A DNA stretch of 64,000 nucleotides from Desulfuromonadales bacterium (GTDB lineage Bacteria > Desulfobacterota > Desulfuromonadia > Desulfuromonadales > Geopsychrobacteraceae). The stretch lies in the NCBI GenBank assembly GCA_019429255.1, contig JAHYIY010000002.1:87141-151140 (forward strand), given 5' to 3'. Shown here in pieces: positions 34,211-41,497 of the stretch. The position numbers were made by a program, and so were the translations under genes. The notes under the pieces are model-generated. The model saw only the letters and a list, made by a program, of their open reading frames with translations. It was not told where the DNA came from and made no database searches. Each line of letters begins with the position of its first letter. Position 1 is the stretch's first letter.

Positions 34211-34843
34211 GTGTTTACAATGCAACATGTCAAGGCGCCGATAAGTCCCCCTGGCCGACTTAAAGTACGTACTATCGATCCGGAAAATAAGGCCCGCTGT
34301 GTTCTCGAGTCTGCCCGCCAGCTCTTTGTCCGGAAGGGCTACCATCGGGTTTCAGTACCGGATATTGTTCAGGATTCAGGTGTCAGTACCGGCGCCATCT
34401 ATAATTTGTTTGGCAGCAAGGAAAATCTGGCGGCGACGGTGCAGGCGGAAACCATGAAGGATTTTCACGCGATGTTTCTGGAACGACTGAGAGACCGTGA
34501 AAGTACTTACGATAAGCTGCACGCCTTTGCGGAAATAGTCTTTGAGGTGACAGAAAAAGATCCCACCAGGATGGAGTATCTGTTGTTCATGCGCCACGCC
34601 GATTTTTTGGAGGACATGCCGCCGGTTTGTCTGACCGAACCCTTTCGCCTTGTTAGGCAAATCGTAACCGAGGGGATGTCGCGCGGAGAGGTGAAACAAG
34701 GGGATTTTTTTGTCAGTGCAGTGAGTTTTACCGGAATTATTCTGCGCGCGGCGCAGCTTAATTTGCAGTGTGTTCTGCCCAGGCCCTTGTCGGAGTTGAG
34801 CGCCGAGTTTATTCAGAACGCCTGGGATGCCATTAAAGCGTGA
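34211..34843 (+). CDS. TetR-family transcriptional regulator
   Basis: VLESARQLFVRKGYHRVSVPDIVQDSGVSTGAIYNLFGSKENL HTH. Confidence 0.93.
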   Translation: MFTMQHVKAPISPPGRLKVRTIDPENKARCVLESARQLFVRKGYHRVSVPDIVQDSGVSTGAIYNLFGSKENLAATVQAETMKDFHAMFLERLRDRESTYDKLHAFAEIVFEVTEKDPTRMEYLLFMRHADFLEDMPPVCLTEPFRLVRQIVTEGMSRGEVKQGDFFVSAVSFTGIILRAAQLNLQCVLPRPLSELSAEFIQNAWDAIKA

Positions 34844-35068
34844 GAAACAAGAACTGTGTAATTGCGCAGTTTGTCAGTGCGCGTGACCACGGTTTTTGTT
34901 GACAGTTGAGGGTGAAGCAGTTACAGTTGCGTTAATGTTTTTTACAAACAGGTTTAATCAGCCCCAAGCGGGTATTTTTTATAATCAGCAATAAAAAAGA
35001 ACATTCTTTCTATAACAGTGTTTGATTTTACCGCGATGGTACCATTTGACATTGTTATTTTGTATCTG

Positions 35069-35210
35069 TTCAGCACCGGGCCTTTGGATCCTGCGGCAAG
35101 GGTTTTTGTCGCCATGGACGGCGACAAAAAGCGGTCATGGATGACCCGGCGGGAAACAATCGCGTCCCTTGACATGGGATTCAAAGGCCCGGTGCAAGGA
35201 TAGAGCTGAA
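35069..35210. repeat. Nested inverted-repeat (cloverleaf-like) element, possible MITE/REP-type dispersed repeat
   Basis: TTCAGC/GCTGAA and CACCGGGCCTTTG (35074-35086)/CAAAGGCCCGGTG (35182-35194); CAAGGG/CCCTTG; internal hairpins TTTTTGTCGCC-ATGGAC-GGCGACAAAAA (35103-35130) and GGTCAT-GG-ATGACC (35133-35146). Confidence 0.75.
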
Positions 35211-35272
35211 TAGCAACGTTATTTTTGGCGCAAACTTTAGAACGAACAATCTGTCTAAAAAGGAGTCTCATC

Positions 35273-35608
35273 ATGAAGAAAGTATTGGTACTTATTGTTG
35301 CAGCAGCCTTGACCCTTCCAGCCGGTACAATGGCTTTTGATCTCAGCGGTTGGGAGAGTGCCAACAAGGATCGTGGTCAGTGGGCCTGGTTTACCGGTCA
35401 AGGGCAGAAATGTGATGAACAGATCCCTGTTCCCGGAGCGCACACCCGTGCCGAATGGCAACAGCTGCTCACTACTGACAAAGACAAGCTTCCCTGTGGT
35501 GGCGCTGGCTTGACCCAGCGCGCTATCAATCACGTATTTTTGTTTCTTCACAGCCACGCTTCTGATTCCGATGATCCGATGAATCAGAAGCCTGAATCCT
35601 GCGGTTAA
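35273..35608 (+). CDS. Small secreted protein, c-type-cytochrome-like but without CxxCH
   Basis: Signal peptide; C-terminal LTQRAINHVFLFLHSHASDSDDP resembles cytochrome c C-terminal helices; no haem motif. Confidence 0.6.
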   Translation: MKKVLVLIVAAALTLPAGTMAFDLSGWESANKDRGQWAWFTGQGQKCDEQIPVPGAHTRAEWQQLLTTDKDKLPCGGAGLTQRAINHVFLFLHSHASDSDDPMNQKPESCG

Positions 35609-35617
35609 GTTGACTTT

Positions 35618-36121
35618 GTGACAACTCAAGATAAACAGCAGATTGGTCAACGCCTGCTTGAACTGGTCGCGTTGCTTGATTATCCAACGGCCGAGATCGC
35701 TGAGCTTTGTGGCTTCAGCTTTGAGAAGTTGGAAAACTGTTATGTACGTTTATTCATCAACGATCTCGGCGGAGTTAGCGCTCCTCCTTTTGCCGGTTGC
35801 TATGTAGAAAAAGAAGATCGCCTCAATTTCATGTCGCGATTCAGTGGCTTTTGTAGAGAAGCGGGCATAGAGATTGATGCTTCTTTTCCGCCCGATTACA
35901 TACCAATGATGGTGGAAGTGTTGGTGTTACTGTTGTCGGTAGAGGGCAGTGAGGCTGATGTCCGCTCCCTGGTATCCAGTTTTTACCAGCGTTGGCCCCG
36001 TCTTTTTGCCGAGACCCTGAAAGAACACGATAAGACGGGCCTCTATGCTGATGCAGGTAAAGAGCTTTGCCGGATAATAGAAGAGCTGCCTGACATTCTT
36101 ATCTTTAATGCCGCGACTTGA
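35618..36121 (+). CDS. TorD/DmsD-like molybdoenzyme chaperone (GTG start)
   Basis: ~167 aa helical protein; PPDYIPMMVEVLVLLL motif similar to the TorD family; directly upstream of molybdoenzyme. Confidence 0.75.
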   Translation: MTTQDKQQIGQRLLELVALLDYPTAEIAELCGFSFEKLENCYVRLFINDLGGVSAPPFAGCYVEKEDRLNFMSRFSGFCREAGIEIDASFPPDYIPMMVEVLVLLLSVEGSEADVRSLVSSFYQRWPRLFAETLKEHDKTGLYADAGKELCRIIEELPDILIFNAAT

Positions 36122-36216
36122 AAATATTATTGCTTCGCGCCCTTGCGGGAACAGGAGGGGGAGGCAAGAACCGGGAAGTCCTGGGAATATTAAAAAATCA
36201 AGGAGATTGACTGAAA

Positions 36217-38412
36217 ATGAGCATATCTCGCAGGAATTTTCTTAAAGGCTCGGTTGCGGGGATCGGCTGCTTAGGCTTGGTCCCGGTGGCAGGGATGCGT
36301 TTTGCCGGCTGGGCGGAGGCTGGGAAACAGCCAAGTGGGGTTCTCAATTATGTTGCCTCGAGCTGTGCCATTTGTACCAATAAATGCGTTTTCCGCGGGC
36401 AGGTTGTCGATGGTGTCATCAGGCGTCTGGAGCCGGAGCCGGAGTTTACCAAAGCACGGGGGATGATGTGCGCGCGCGGTAATGCAGGCGCAGCGACCCC
36501 CTATGACCCGGACCGGGTAAAATATCCGCTGATCCGCACCGGTAAGCGCGGAGAGGGCAAGTGGAAAAAAGCCACCTGGGATGAAGCTTATGCTTATATT
36601 GCCGAAAAAACCAACAAGGTCGTTGCGGAAGAAGGGGGCCACCGTTCCTGCATTGGTTTTGTTTCTTCCGAAGGCACTTACCACGAACATTACTGGAACC
36701 AGTTTCGCGAAATTTTTGGTTCGCCCAACTCCTTGCGTCATCCAACCCTCTGTCTGAGCTCCAATATTCGCGGTAACATGTCGGTTTTTGGTACCTATCC
36801 CTGGGCAGATGTAAAAAATTCCCCCTATATCATTCTTGCCGGGGCAGATCGTGCCGAGTCCTTCTTTACTCCTGACACCATGGACATGTTCGGCGATCCC
36901 AGAAAAACGATCATCTGTCTTGACCCGCGTTTTACCAGGACGGCGGCTAAAGCCACCAGGTGGTATCCGATCAAGCCGGGTACCGACATGGCCTTTGCTC
37001 TGGCAATGATGCATGTGATCATTGGTGAAAATCGCTATGACAAAGAGTTTGTGAGTAACCATTGTGTCGGCTTTGACGAGTTGGCGCAGCATGTCAGGCA
37101 ATACACGCCACGTTGGGCCGAGCAGGAAACAGAGATTCCGGCGGCAGAAATTGAAAAAATAGCCCGTGATTTTGCTTCGACTCCGGGCGCTGTCTACTAT
37201 CCCGGCCGTCGTTCCGGTTGGCAGGGTGAAGATGTGCAGATGCGTCGGGCTGTCGCCATGGTCAATGCCATCTGTGGCAGCTTTGATCGCCCCGGTGGCC
37301 TGATTCCTAATGCGTCGATTCCGCTGCGGAACTATTTTTACGAGCCGGCCTGGTACGACTTGACCAGACCGCGACTTGAAGCGGATGACGTAACCTTCCT
37401 TAATCCCCGTGATGGCTCCTGGATTGCCTGGCGCGAGCGTGCCTTGAGGGCTGATCCGTACGCTATCCGTGGATTGTTTATTTACAAACAGAATGTGGTT
37501 GACTCGGTTCCGGATCGTAGTAAGACACTAGAACTATTCGATAAACTCGATATTATCGTTTCTATAGATACCTACATGAGTGATACCGCCTGGCATGCCG
37601 ATGTGGTATTGCCCGAGTCAAATTATCTGGAACGCTTTGATCCGCCCTACAGCCTGGCCGGCATCGTGCCTTATGTCGTGATTCGTCAGCCCCTCATCAA
37701 ACCGCTTTACGACACCAAGCCCGGTTTTGACATCATCAAGGGACTGGCCGGGTATTTTGCCGATGAGGATGGTGACTTCCTGAATGAGTATTTTGAAGGG
37801 GACGTTGAAAGTCATGCCAGCAACTTCATGGCCGACTATCCCGGTGGTCTGGAAATGCTTAAGGAAAAGGGCTTTTTCACCGATGGCCGCAAAGCGGAAA
37901 TCGGCGCCTATCGCAGCGGCAAAAGTGCCATCAACACACCGAGCGGAAAGGTGGAGTTTTACAGTGAAGATTTTGCCGGCCGCGGTCTCGACCCGCTGCC
38001 GACCTATAAGCCAGTCGAAGAAATCCCCGAAAACCGCTTCCGCTTTTTAGTCGGGCGCCATGCGATTCATACTCACTCAATGACAGCGGCCTTTCCGGAA
38101 CTGAACTGGCACATGCCGGAAAACAGCGTCTGGATCAATACCCGGTCGGCTAAAAAACTTGGCATTAAATCCGGGGATACCGTGCAGATGAAAAACCGCA
38201 CCGGTGGTGAAGTGAAGATTAAGGCGAGGGTGACCGAGGCCATTCGCCCTGACTGTGTGTTCTATGCTCATGGCTACGGCAGCCTTTCCAAGGCCAAGCG
38301 TCTGGTTCATGGCAAAGGAGCGGCCCAGGCAGCAATTCTTGAATCACATTTCGAGTCGATTTCAGGTAATGCGCTGATGCATGAAACGATTGTAGAAATA
38401 AGGAGGGTTTAA
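36217..38412 (+). CDS. Molybdopterin oxidoreductase catalytic subunit, polysulfide/thiosulfate reductase (PsrA/PhsA)-like
   Basis: Tat signal SRRNFLKGS; CAICTNKCVF...GMMCARG 4Fe-4S motif; PTLCLSSN probable Cys Mo ligand; MoPt dinucleotide-binding C-terminus. Confidence 0.92.
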   Translation: MSISRRNFLKGSVAGIGCLGLVPVAGMRFAGWAEAGKQPSGVLNYVASSCAICTNKCVFRGQVVDGVIRRLEPEPEFTKARGMMCARGNAGAATPYDPDRVKYPLIRTGKRGEGKWKKATWDEAYAYIAEKTNKVVAEEGGHRSCIGFVSSEGTYHEHYWNQFREIFGSPNSLRHPTLCLSSNIRGNMSVFGTYPWADVKNSPYIILAGADRAESFFTPDTMDMFGDPRKTIICLDPRFTRTAAKATRWYPIKPGTDMAFALAMMHVIIGENRYDKEFVSNHCVGFDELAQHVRQYTPRWAEQETEIPAAEIEKIARDFASTPGAVYYPGRRSGWQGEDVQMRRAVAMVNAICGSFDRPGGLIPNASIPLRNYFYEPAWYDLTRPRLEADDVTFLNPRDGSWIAWRERALRADPYAIRGLFIYKQNVVDSVPDRSKTLELFDKLDIIVSIDTYMSDTAWHADVVLPESNYLERFDPPYSLAGIVPYVVIRQPLIKPLYDTKPGFDIIKGLAGYFADEDGDFLNEYFEGDVESHASNFMADYPGGLEMLKEKGFFTDGRKAEIGAYRSGKSAINTPSGKVEFYSEDFAGRGLDPLPTYKPVEEIPENRFRFLVGRHAIHTHSMTAAFPELNWHMPENSVWINTRSAKKLGIKSGDTVQMKNRTGGEVKIKARVTEAIRPDCVFYAHGYGSLSKAKRLVHGKGAAQAAILESHFESISGNALMHETIVEIRRV

Positions 38413-38415
38413 GCC

Positions 38416-38985
38416 ATGGCCGGAGCAAAAAACAAACACTGGGCGATGGTCATCGACTCAGCAAAATGTATCGACTGCAAGGCCTGTGACGTTGCCTGTA
38501 AGCGTGAAAATGGAATCGAAGCCAATGGGCGCCGCGAAGTGTACCGTAACTGGATTACCTCCAAGGGTGTTGAGGGGACTTACCCGAACCTGAAGCAGCG
38601 TTTCGAGCCAAGTCAGTGCCATCATTGCGCCAACACCCCGTGCTATAAGGTATGCCCGACCAGCGCGACCTATAAAAATGACGATGGGCTGATCATGATG
38701 GATTATAAGCGCTGTATCGTCTGCTCAACCTGTATCGCAGCCTGTCCCTATGACGCCCGCTACGTATCCAAGCAGAAAAAAGCCATCGATAAATGTACCT
38801 TCTGTGCCCATCGTATCTACACCGGGAAATTACCGGCCTGTGTCGACACCTGTCCGACGAAAGTCAGGGTTTTCGGCGATTTAAACGATCCTGAGAGTGA
38901 GGTTTCCAAGATTCTGGCAAGTCGGCATTATTTTGTCATCAAGCCGGAAGCCGGAACCAAACCAAATCTCTACTACCTGACGTGA
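38416..38985 (+). CDS. 4Fe-4S ferredoxin electron-transfer subunit (PsrB/PhsB/NrfC-like)
   Basis: CIDCKACDVACK, CHHCANTPCYKVCP, CIVCSTCIAACPYDARY, CTFCAHRI...CVDTCPT motifs. Confidence 0.94.
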   Translation: MAGAKNKHWAMVIDSAKCIDCKACDVACKRENGIEANGRREVYRNWITSKGVEGTYPNLKQRFEPSQCHHCANTPCYKVCPTSATYKNDDGLIMMDYKRCIVCSTCIAACPYDARYVSKQKKAIDKCTFCAHRIYTGKLPACVDTCPTKVRVFGDLNDPESEVSKILASRHYFVIKPEAGTKPNLYYLT

Positions 38986-40172
38986 GGTGCAAAGATATGA
39001 GTACACTGATTGGCAGTGCAATCCAGAATGTGAAGAGTTCTTTTTCTCCCCGCGGAGTCGTATGGACCCTTTGGGCCGGAATTCTGGTTGTCATTGGTCT
39101 GGCAGCATTGGTCAATTACTTCATCCATGGTCATGATGCCTACGGCACTTCGCGACAGGTACCATGGGGCATCCTGATATCAACCTATGTTTTTTTTGTG
39201 GTTTCGAGTACCGGCCTGTGTCTGGTCTCATCCCTGGGGCACGTTTTTGGCTTCAAGCAGTTTGAGGTGATCGGTAAGCGCGCCATTGTCATGGCAATTG
39301 CTACTATTCTTGCCGGTTTTGCCGTCATTGCAACAGAGATCGGCTATCCCTTCCGCATGTTGATTTACAATTTTGTCTCCCCCAATTTTGCTGCGGCCAT
39401 CTGGTGGATGGGTACTCTGTACGGCTTATATCTGCTGTTTATCCTGTTGGAATTTGGATTTATGATGAAAGTTCATCATAAATATGCCGGCTATGCGGGG
39501 TTGGCGGCCTTTGTCGCAGGGATTGCCGCACACTCCAATCTCGGTGCCGTTTTCGGACTGCTTGACGCGCGGAAGTGGTGGAGTGGTCCCTTTTTGCCGA
39601 TCTATTTTATCCTTTCGGCAGCAGTTACCGGCTGTGCCATTGTCCTGCTGCTATTTGCCGTACGTTATATGAAGGAGAAGATGCCTGATAATGTGCGTGA
39701 CACCATGTTAACGATCAGCAAGCTTTTTTGCTTCCTGCTCGGCGTGCTCATTTTTTTTGGTATCTGGAAGTTGTTCTCTTCACTGTATGCCGGAGCTCCA
39801 GGAAAATACGAGGCAATGATGGCACTGGTCAATGGACCACTTTGGGTCAGCTACTGGGGTTTCGAAGTGTTTCTGGGGATGGTGTTACCCTTTGTGCTGA
39901 TTCTGGTTACTAAGGGCAAAAATCTGGGAGTGGCAGTCTTTGCCGCAGCCAGCAGCATGGTCGGAATTTTCTTCATGCGTTACAACCTGGTTGTTGCCGG
40001 TCAGCTTAAGCCGATGCGCTATGATCCCGAAGTTGTGGGTGCCGGTGGATTGGTCAGTTATGCACCAACGATAACGGAGATTGGCATTGTTTTGGGAGGC
40101 ATCGGCCTGTGTCTGCTGATGTATATCGCGGCCAATATGATTTTTAATCTGGACGCTGAAGAGCATCATTAA
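38982..40172 (+). CDS. NrfD/PsrC-family membrane anchor subunit
   Basis: 396 aa, ~10 TM segments; follows PsrB-like subunit. Confidence 0.9.
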   Translation: MRCKDMSTLIGSAIQNVKSSFSPRGVVWTLWAGILVVIGLAALVNYFIHGHDAYGTSRQVPWGILISTYVFFVVSSTGLCLVSSLGHVFGFKQFEVIGKRAIVMAIATILAGFAVIATEIGYPFRMLIYNFVSPNFAAAIWWMGTLYGLYLLFILLEFGFMMKVHHKYAGYAGLAAFVAGIAAHSNLGAVFGLLDARKWWSGPFLPIYFILSAAVTGCAIVLLLFAVRYMKEKMPDNVRDTMLTISKLFCFLLGVLIFFGIWKLFSSLYAGAPGKYEAMMALVNGPLWVSYWGFEVFLGMVLPFVLILVTKGKNLGVAVFAAASSMVGIFFMRYNLVVAGQLKPMRYDPEVVGAGGLVSYAPTITEIGIVLGGIGLCLLMYIAANMIFNLDAEEHH

Positions 40173-40312
40173 AGGCAGGTTACAGCACTAGTCGTTGCCC
40201 GCTTTGATGATCACAGGATCTGGCGAACGGATTATCCTAATGCGCTGATTTTATAAAGAAATTAGCTGCATTGTATTTCATAACCCCGTAACGCGAAGGA
40301 AAGGAGTCAAGG

Positions 40313-41497
40313 ATGCGATTTTTGCGAGTCACATTGCTGCCACTTGTCGCCCTGCTGCTGTTTGCAGCCGGCTGCGCGACAACCGCACCGACAGCGGCAG
40401 TAACGCCGTCGGCGCAGGGGCACACCAAACTGGTGGAACAGGATCCCAAGATTGCCATCACCACCCAGGAGGTCATGGCCCTGTTCAAGGAAGTATACGG
40501 CGATGCCCCGCTGATCCAGGCAACTCTGGATAAGAACGACACGTTTGTCTTGGTGGATACCCGTCCTATTACCCGTTTTACGGCGGACACGGTGCCGGGG
40601 TCTATCCATATTGCGACCCCGAAATTTGAGACAGATATCCCCAATTTGCCTAAGGATAAACCTGTTATTTTCTATTGTGGTGGTTTGGCCTGTCCCTTTA
40701 CCAAGGCTGCAAGCGAAAAGGCACAGGCTCTCGGGTTTACCAACATCAGCGCCTGGTACGAAGGAGAGCCTGGCTGGACCGCGGCAGGAAACTACACCAT
40801 TATTCAAACTGGCCCGATAAAAGCGCTGGTTGATGACAGTGCCAAGGGTGGATTTGCCTTGATCGATGCGCGCCCCCATCTGGTCAACCAGAAAGAACAT
40901 ATCCCCGGATCCATTTCAATTCCCTGGGTTTTGTGGGAACAGAAAAAAGGCCTGTTGCCGACGGACAAAGATACCCTGTTGATCTTCTACTGCGGCGGTC
41001 ATCACTGTGACTTGAGTCATAAGAGTGCCAATGCCGCACTGGCTATGGGCTACAAAAAAGTACGCGTTTACGCTGAAGGTATCCCGGCCTGGAAAAAAGC
41101 CGGTCACGGCACCTGGGGTAATGATGCCAGTGGAATCGTTGAGGTGCCTAAAGGGCCTTCCCCAACGATCAGTAAAGAGGACCTGCATAAAGGAATCGCC
41201 GCCGGCAGTTTGTTTATCGTTGACGTGCGGAGCGAGCGTGAGTTCGACGAAGGTCATATACCCGGTGCTACTCTGATTCCAGATGGTGAGTTCTACAATA
41301 ATATCGAAGCTGTTATTGCCAAGTTGCCAATCGACAAAAAGGTTGTCTTTGTCTGTGCAACTGGCGCACGTTCCGGTGGTGCCTTTTTCGCTCTGCAGGA
41401 TGAGATTGAAGACGGCAACTACAAGAACGAAAAAGGCGTTGTCTATCTTCCGTACGCGGTAGAATACAAGGCCGATGGTACTTTTGAAATCAAGTAA
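40313..41497 (+). CDS. Triple-rhodanese-domain lipoprotein
   Basis: Lipobox LFAAGC; three rhodanese loops with Cys: FYCGGLACPFTK, FYCGGHHCDLSH, FVCATGARSGG. Confidence 0.92.
   Translation: MRFLRVTLLPLVALLLFAAGCATTAPTAAVTPSAQGHTKLVEQDPKIAITTQEVMALFKEVYGDAPLIQATLDKNDTFVLVDTRPITRFTADTVPGSIHIATPKFETDIPNLPKDKPVIFYCGGLACPFTKAASEKAQALGFTNISAWYEGEPGWTAAGNYTIIQTGPIKALVDDSAKGGFALIDARPHLVNQKEHIPGSISIPWVLWEQKKGLLPTDKDTLLIFYCGGHHCDLSHKSANAALAMGYKKVRVYAEGIPAWKKAGHGTWGNDASGIVEVPKGPSPTISKEDLHKGIAAGSLFIVDVRSEREFDEGHIPGATLIPDGEFYNNIEAVIAKLPIDKKVVFVCATGARSGGAFFALQDEIEDGNYKNEKGVVYLPYAVEYKADGTFEIK

Follow-up and report, generated by a model that had tools for sequence, protein, structure and literature searches.

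The 64,000 nt window analysed here, from the forward strand of a Desulfuromonadales bacterium contig (JAHYIY010000002.1, positions 87,141 to 151,140), carries a cluster of genes predicted to encode a molybdoenzyme of the polysulfide reductase (Psr) type together with a lipoprotein, Rhd3, containing three rhodanese domains. Six co-directional open reading frames (ORFs) at 35273-41497 had been listed in an earlier, sequence-only reading; all are present and closely spaced, on the evidence of the ORF list and Pfam matches, and to these can be added the upstream gene for a TetR-family regulator (34211-34843), which is a member of the cluster in other genomes. The features are as follows, with the loci used in comparisons denoted by L numbers.

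34211-34843, + strand: TetR-family regulator (PF00440, 2.9e-14; also synteny)
35273-35608, + strand: cytL, small secreted haem-less protein of 111 amino acids (lacking CxxCH; HHalign to monohaem cytochromes c)
35618-36121, + strand: torD, TorD/NarJ-type maturation chaperone (PF02613, 2.6e-10; PRK04976 TorD, 7.9e-6, below the cut-off)
36217-38412, + strand: psrA, PsrA/PhsA-type molybdenum bis(pyranopterin guanine dinucleotide) catalytic subunit with a twin-arginine translocation (Tat) signal (PF00384, 5e-39; PF04879; PF01568)
38416-38985, + strand: psrB, PsrB-like Fe-S subunit with 16 Cys, four [4Fe-4S] sites being expected (Pfam Fe-S dicluster)
38982-40172, + strand: psrC, PsrC/NrfD-like quinol-binding membrane subunit, starting at GTG 38982 or ATG 38997 (PF03916 NrfD, 1.1e-27)
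40313-41497, + strand: rhd3, triple-rhodanese lipoprotein (PF00581 in three stretches, 1.7e-41), with lipobox Cys21 at 40373-40375
40676-40693, + strand: rhd3 domain 1 loop, C122-GGLA-C127; the Cys127 codon is TGT (40691-40693), and TGA in four orthologues
40991-41008, + strand: rhd3 domain 2 loop, C227-GGHH-C232; the second position is TGA in L123, L131, L160 and L161
41354-41374, + strand: rhd3 domain 3 loop, C348-ATGARS, of the single-Cys rhodanese type (loop alignment and Cys count)

Conservation of the cluster

The window shares the order TetR-cytL-torD-psrA-psrB-psrC-rhd3 with a genome from another family of the order (L044) and two Desulfurivibrio genomes (L093 and L094). Pelovirga terrestris (L001) has the identical order minus TetR, and the regulator is likewise not adjacent to the cluster in L002 and L005, which belong to the same genus. 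Conservation of the six-gene synteny had been put forward as a check on the sequence-only reading; this arrangement recurs in Desulfurivibrio and, within the order, in another genus belonging to another family, which answers the check positively and rules out a chance arrangement. Amino acid identity between the window and P. terrestris forms a mosaic (34211-41497 against L001 4922-11185, two species of one genus): the cytL, torD and psrA products are 72%, 53% and 74% identical, those of psrB, psrC and rhd3 96%, 94% and 88%, and those of flanking genes 84-93%. One reading of this pattern is partial replacement of the operon, another is faster evolution. In L002 (9407-10909) and L005 (9408-10273), the operon has a differing psrB (60%) and no psrC ahead of the rhodanese gene.

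More distant psrA genes also have rhodanese genes nearby (L098, L100-L103, L105-L107 and L111), and at some of these distant loci a cytochrome b561 anchor takes the place of NrfD. A cytochrome b561-type protein (PF01292) encoded between psrB and the rhodanese gene of L105 (3075-3806) seems to be such a replacement, and a similar-looking gene is present in L106. Elsewhere in the order, in L003 (75-4883) and L060 (7588-11963), the triple-rhodanese lipoprotein gene has as neighbours genes for porin-like and FG-GAP repeat proteins in place of psr genes. A search of plasmids recovered distant rhodaneses only.

Function of the predicted reductase

The PsrA product has a Tat motif (SRRNFLK), intact Fe-S ligands (Cys50, Cys53, Cys57 and Cys85) and a putative molybdenum ligand, Cys179 (codon 36751-36753), which aligns with the corresponding Cys of Thermus PsrA (2vpw). 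The latter was also the closest solved structure in a PDB sequence search, matching along its full length (residues 4-727, 403.7 bits, compared with 180 for ArrA). When scored against NCBIfam models, PsrA matched PhsA at 476 bits, dimethyl sulfoxide reductase at 262, ArrA at 190, Nap at 94-96, TtrA at 80 and NarG at 64. The Cys ligand, single [4Fe-4S] site, Tat signal and a top match above ArrA, TtrA, Nap and Nar are the sequence characters expected of the PsrA/PhsA/SrrA lineage, to which the window protein belongs, and its partners are those of a PsrABC enzyme, namely a B subunit with 16 Cys for four Fe-S sites and an NrfD anchor (PF03916). A comparison across 395 genomes of the phylum placed the nearest PsrA sequences outside the order in one genus, at 68-71% identity; psrA of the Desulfurivibrio cluster genomes (D. 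alkaliphilus and a second genome) is 70-71% identical to that of the window.

The sequence-only reading knew of no characterised system with this composition, which does not hold: the Desulfurivibrio literature reports one, triple-rhodanese lipoprotein included (PMC12142623, PMC5516251, PMC5016858), and the srrEABCDF operon has two rhodanese genes. In D. dismutans, the Psr operon RS06465-06490, where RS06465 codes for a triple-rhodanese protein predicted to be a lipoprotein, is strongly upregulated in sulfur disproportionation, with Psr assigned to the reductive branch (PMC12142623). In D. alkaliphilus, the operon DaAHT2_0417-0420, with DaAHT2_0417 as the rhodanese, is highly expressed during sulfide oxidation, and an oxidative direction was proposed for it; culture data from the same organism favour a sulfur rather than a thiosulfate reductase (PMC5516251, PMC5016858). 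The Desulfurivibrio operon resembles that of the window in its six genes, including the triple-rhodanese lipoprotein with its signal peptide, and in its orthologous psrA, and the D. alkaliphilus order matches that of the window down to TetR; however, the D. alkaliphilus rhodanese gene has TGA where the window has Cys127.

Other systems are also comparable. In haloarchaea, psrABCD lie beside rhodanese or sulfurtransferase genes, a likeness in gene content between operons that differ in being archaeal. In Wolinella succinogenes, Sud is a small, single-domain periplasmic sulfur carrier that feeds PsrABC; the likeness lies in a periplasmic carrier supplying Psr, but that of the window is a three-domain lipoprotein encoded inside the operon and having two-Cys loops.

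Taken together, the cluster probably encodes a menaquinol-dependent periplasmic reductase of polysulfide or elemental sulfur, resembling PsrABC and equipped with a dedicated lipoprotein as sulfur carrier. This reading is supported by the orthologous Desulfurivibrio operons, which track sulfur metabolism, and by P. terrestris, which carries the cluster and is described as sulfur-reducing; by that orthology the most likely substrate would be polysulfide or elemental sulfur. What survives of the original sulfur-respiratory interpretation is a PsrA/PhsA-type enzyme with a built-in sulfane-sulfur carrier, favoured by the PhsA and Thermus PsrA matches, Desulfurivibrio expression and P. terrestris; the uncharacterised composition is what falls away. 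As in other members of the family, electrons would be relayed from menaquinol via PsrC and then PsrB to the molybdenum site of PsrA. The lipoprotein would pick up the sulfane sulfur of polysulfide, hold it as a loop Cys persulfide and hand it on to PsrA.

Several observations weigh against this assignment. Sequence fails to separate polysulfide, thiosulfate and selenite enzymes inside the PsrA/PhsA/SrrA lineage, PsrA does not reach the curated 694-bit cut-off of the PhsA model (NF012032), and in the published tree the D. alkaliphilus gene falls outside both the psr and phs branches (PMC5516251, PMC5016858). In L002 and L005, psrB is followed directly by rhd3, with no psrC between. Most triple-rhodanese lipoproteins of the order are not adjacent to psrA, so the carrier is not confined to Psr.

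A respiratory selenite reductase, in which the rhodanese would handle selenium instead of sulfur, is one alternative. The Bacillus selenitireducens operon srrEABCDF, which encodes two rhodanese proteins according to a review, shares the molybdenum subunit, Fe-S subunit, anchor and chaperone with the window, and SrrA belongs to the same lineage as the window PsrA. This substrate is nevertheless unlikely, as the orthologous Desulfurivibrio operons follow sulfur metabolism; in gene composition, the level at which the two were compared, Srr is also set apart by two rhodanese genes rather than one three-domain gene, and its described substrate is selenite. Thiosulfate reduction (Phs), with the rhodanese cleaving thiosulfate or carrying its sulfur, is about equally improbable: PhsA is the top NCBIfam model, but the score is far below its cut-off, and the D. 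alkaliphilus cultures point to sulfur over thiosulfate. It is less likely still that the complex works oxidatively, converting sulfide to sulfur or polysulfide as proposed for D. alkaliphilus from its high expression in sulfide oxidation, given that the orthologous operon is upregulated in disproportionation, with Psr in the reductive branch, that no dsrA match was found in the host genome and that P. terrestris is described as reducing sulfur.

The same genome, 2.74 Mb and 99.9% complete, has an ArrA-like respiratory arsenate reductase elsewhere (L041 1441-4041, contig C20; 1051 bits against a cut-off of 1600). Arsenate thus has a separate candidate enzyme and, with no match to dsrA, the Dsr route looks to be absent. 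Antimonate reductase was also considered as a candidate, for which a literature search gave no useful paper.

Loop position 6 of the rhodanese domains

Rhd3 has exactly six Cys residues, these being lipobox Cys21, the pairs Cys122/Cys127 and Cys227/Cys232, and Cys348. The loops previously quoted for it (CGGLACP, CGGHHCD and CATGARS) all read as given, and the single loop Cys attributed to each domain is correct for domain 3, but domains 1 and 2 carry two each, as C-x4-C. In genome searches, orthologues of rhd3 came up with single TGA codons in frame. In P. terrestris, the metagenome-assembled genome L002, D. alkaliphilus and L094, translation places the TGA at the residue of window Cys127, the reading frame continuing unbroken before and after it; L123 has TGA in domain 2, and L131 in both domains 1 and 2. 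The family loop consensus is Y-C-x-G-x-x-[C/U], and the codons at loop position 6 of 87 unique loops were TGC (56), TGT (13), TGA (16) and others (2), with no TAA or TAG. A later test set from the phylum search gave ten further TGA genes, all with the TGA at this position.

Hairpins beginning 20-22 nt downstream, with an apical loop having G in its first two bases, accompany all 16 TGA loops, whereas any such G loop in range was found for 36 of the 69 Cys loops. Mean hairpin energies were -11.05 kcal/mol for TGA loops and -7.46 kcal/mol for Cys loops (one-sided Mann-Whitney p 2e-5, for related sequences that are not independent). Most hairpins of the ten later genes also begin 20-22 nt downstream, the best-scoring one of L156 lying at 32 nt. 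A selB gene was identified in 49 of 50 genomes, and the host genome carries both selB and tRNA-Sec. These hairpins and the presence of selB support the reading of TGA as selenocysteine (Sec), and many relatives appear to carry Sec at loop position 6. On this sequence-based evidence, it is highly improbable that the TGA codons are instead pseudogenes or sequencing errors, given at least 16 loops with TGA and 69 with TGC or TGT at one position and neither of the other stop codons, the agreement of all ten later genes, the distribution of the G-loop hairpins, the near-universal selB and the finished state of the D. alkaliphilus genome.

The window rhd3 itself, with TGT at 40691-40693 and no in-frame TGA, is not a selenoprotein, although it fits what we term the C-x4-[C/U] multi-rhodanese family through Cys127 and Cys232. 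In a tree, this Cys form pairs with the Sec form of P. terrestris (support 99/80), inside that of L002 (100/100) and sister to those of Desulfurivibrio (97/97). Because it nests among Sec forms, the window copy is most simply read as a secondary Cys form that would have arisen by Sec to Cys replacement; the region matching the downstream hairpin forms a weaker one (-6.2).

A review table of prokaryotic selenoproteins lists rhodanese forms with UxxS, UxxG (twice), CxU (NF041203) and UxxxxU (TsoB, NF045694). All have Sec in or beside the rhodanese loop, and TsoB has the same spacing of positions 1 and 6, but none shows C-x4-U in a multi-rhodanese protein. No family member tested passed the NCBIfam selenoprotein cut-offs: the window rhd3 scored 86.9 bits with the TsoB model (UxxxxU, with a DsbD part; cut-off 805 bits), over the rhodanese part only, and 65 bits with the CxU model (cut-off 115 bits). 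A full-text literature search retrieved no paper that combines selenocysteine, rhodanese and polysulfide reductase, though further literature may exist, and the main text of the Desulfurivibrio Psr papers, in the parts searched, does not mention selenocysteine. The C-x4-[C/U] loop alternation is new here, being described nowhere in the literature searched. The host genome also encodes a small secreted rhodanese (L113, C36:20239-20517) with an in-frame TGA that reads YCTUP, the listed CxU selenoprotein form.

In domains 1 and 2, the sixth loop residue, Cys here and apparently Sec in many relatives, may supply a second chalcogenol next to the Cys that carries the persulfide. This residue could assist in opening the S-S chain or, as one partner of a Cys-Cys or Cys-Sec pair, in resolving the persulfide. 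Domain 3 would function as an ordinary single-Cys rhodanese. An evenly balanced proposal is that the lipoprotein represents an undescribed C-x4-U selenoprotein family serving sulfur respiration, in which the Cys/Sec pair of a single loop would open or resolve polysulfide chains that are then delivered to the molybdenum reductase, and that lineages such as that of the window reverted from Sec to Cys whilst keeping the Sec machinery. An AlphaFold model of the lipoprotein was too weak for use (predicted local distance difference test score, pLDDT, 61.0; predicted template modelling score 0.37).

The handover of insoluble or polymeric sulfur to periplasmic reductases is poorly understood, and alternation of Cys and apparent Sec at one fixed position points to a chemically active residue; Sec and Cys orthologues of 80-90% identity exist in nature and open this to direct testing. 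If TGA encodes Sec, domain 1 is lost from any gene model that ends there, which is what simple ORF calling produces, and a renewed search of proteomes from sulfur-reducing and sulfur-disproportionating organisms would be worthwhile.

The haem-less protein and an intergenic repeat

The description of the first protein as cytochrome-like but haem-less is borne out, with no CxxCH in the product of 35273-35608 and HHalign tying it to monohaem cytochromes c. At distant loci, psrA is preceded by a gene whose product, of around 110 amino acids, has one CxxCH and is scored as cytochrome c by Pfam; aligned with such products, eight haem-less proteins gave a probability of 97.9% (E 5.7e-13). The two groups share a C-terminal H-A-x-D-S motif, while neither the first Cys of the haem site nor the axial His is left in the haem-less proteins; Cys47, Cys75 and Cys110 are conserved in the cytL product. 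A PDB sequence search with this product gave no match, and its AlphaFold model was too weak for use (pLDDT 46.6). By sequence, the cytL product is a true descendant of the monohaem cytochrome c whose gene directly precedes psrA in other genomes; after the loss of haem, it probably retained a role in structure or assembly.

Between TetR and cytL lies an element of around 118 bp (35078-35195) with imperfect terminal inverted repeats (35073-35102/35166-35195). An Rfam search of the window gave no match, so this inverted repeat corresponds to no known RNA. The element is like a miniature inverted-repeat transposable element or a repetitive extragenic palindrome, and copies with 88-97% identity occur at about 40 places in the genome, several of them at contig ends.

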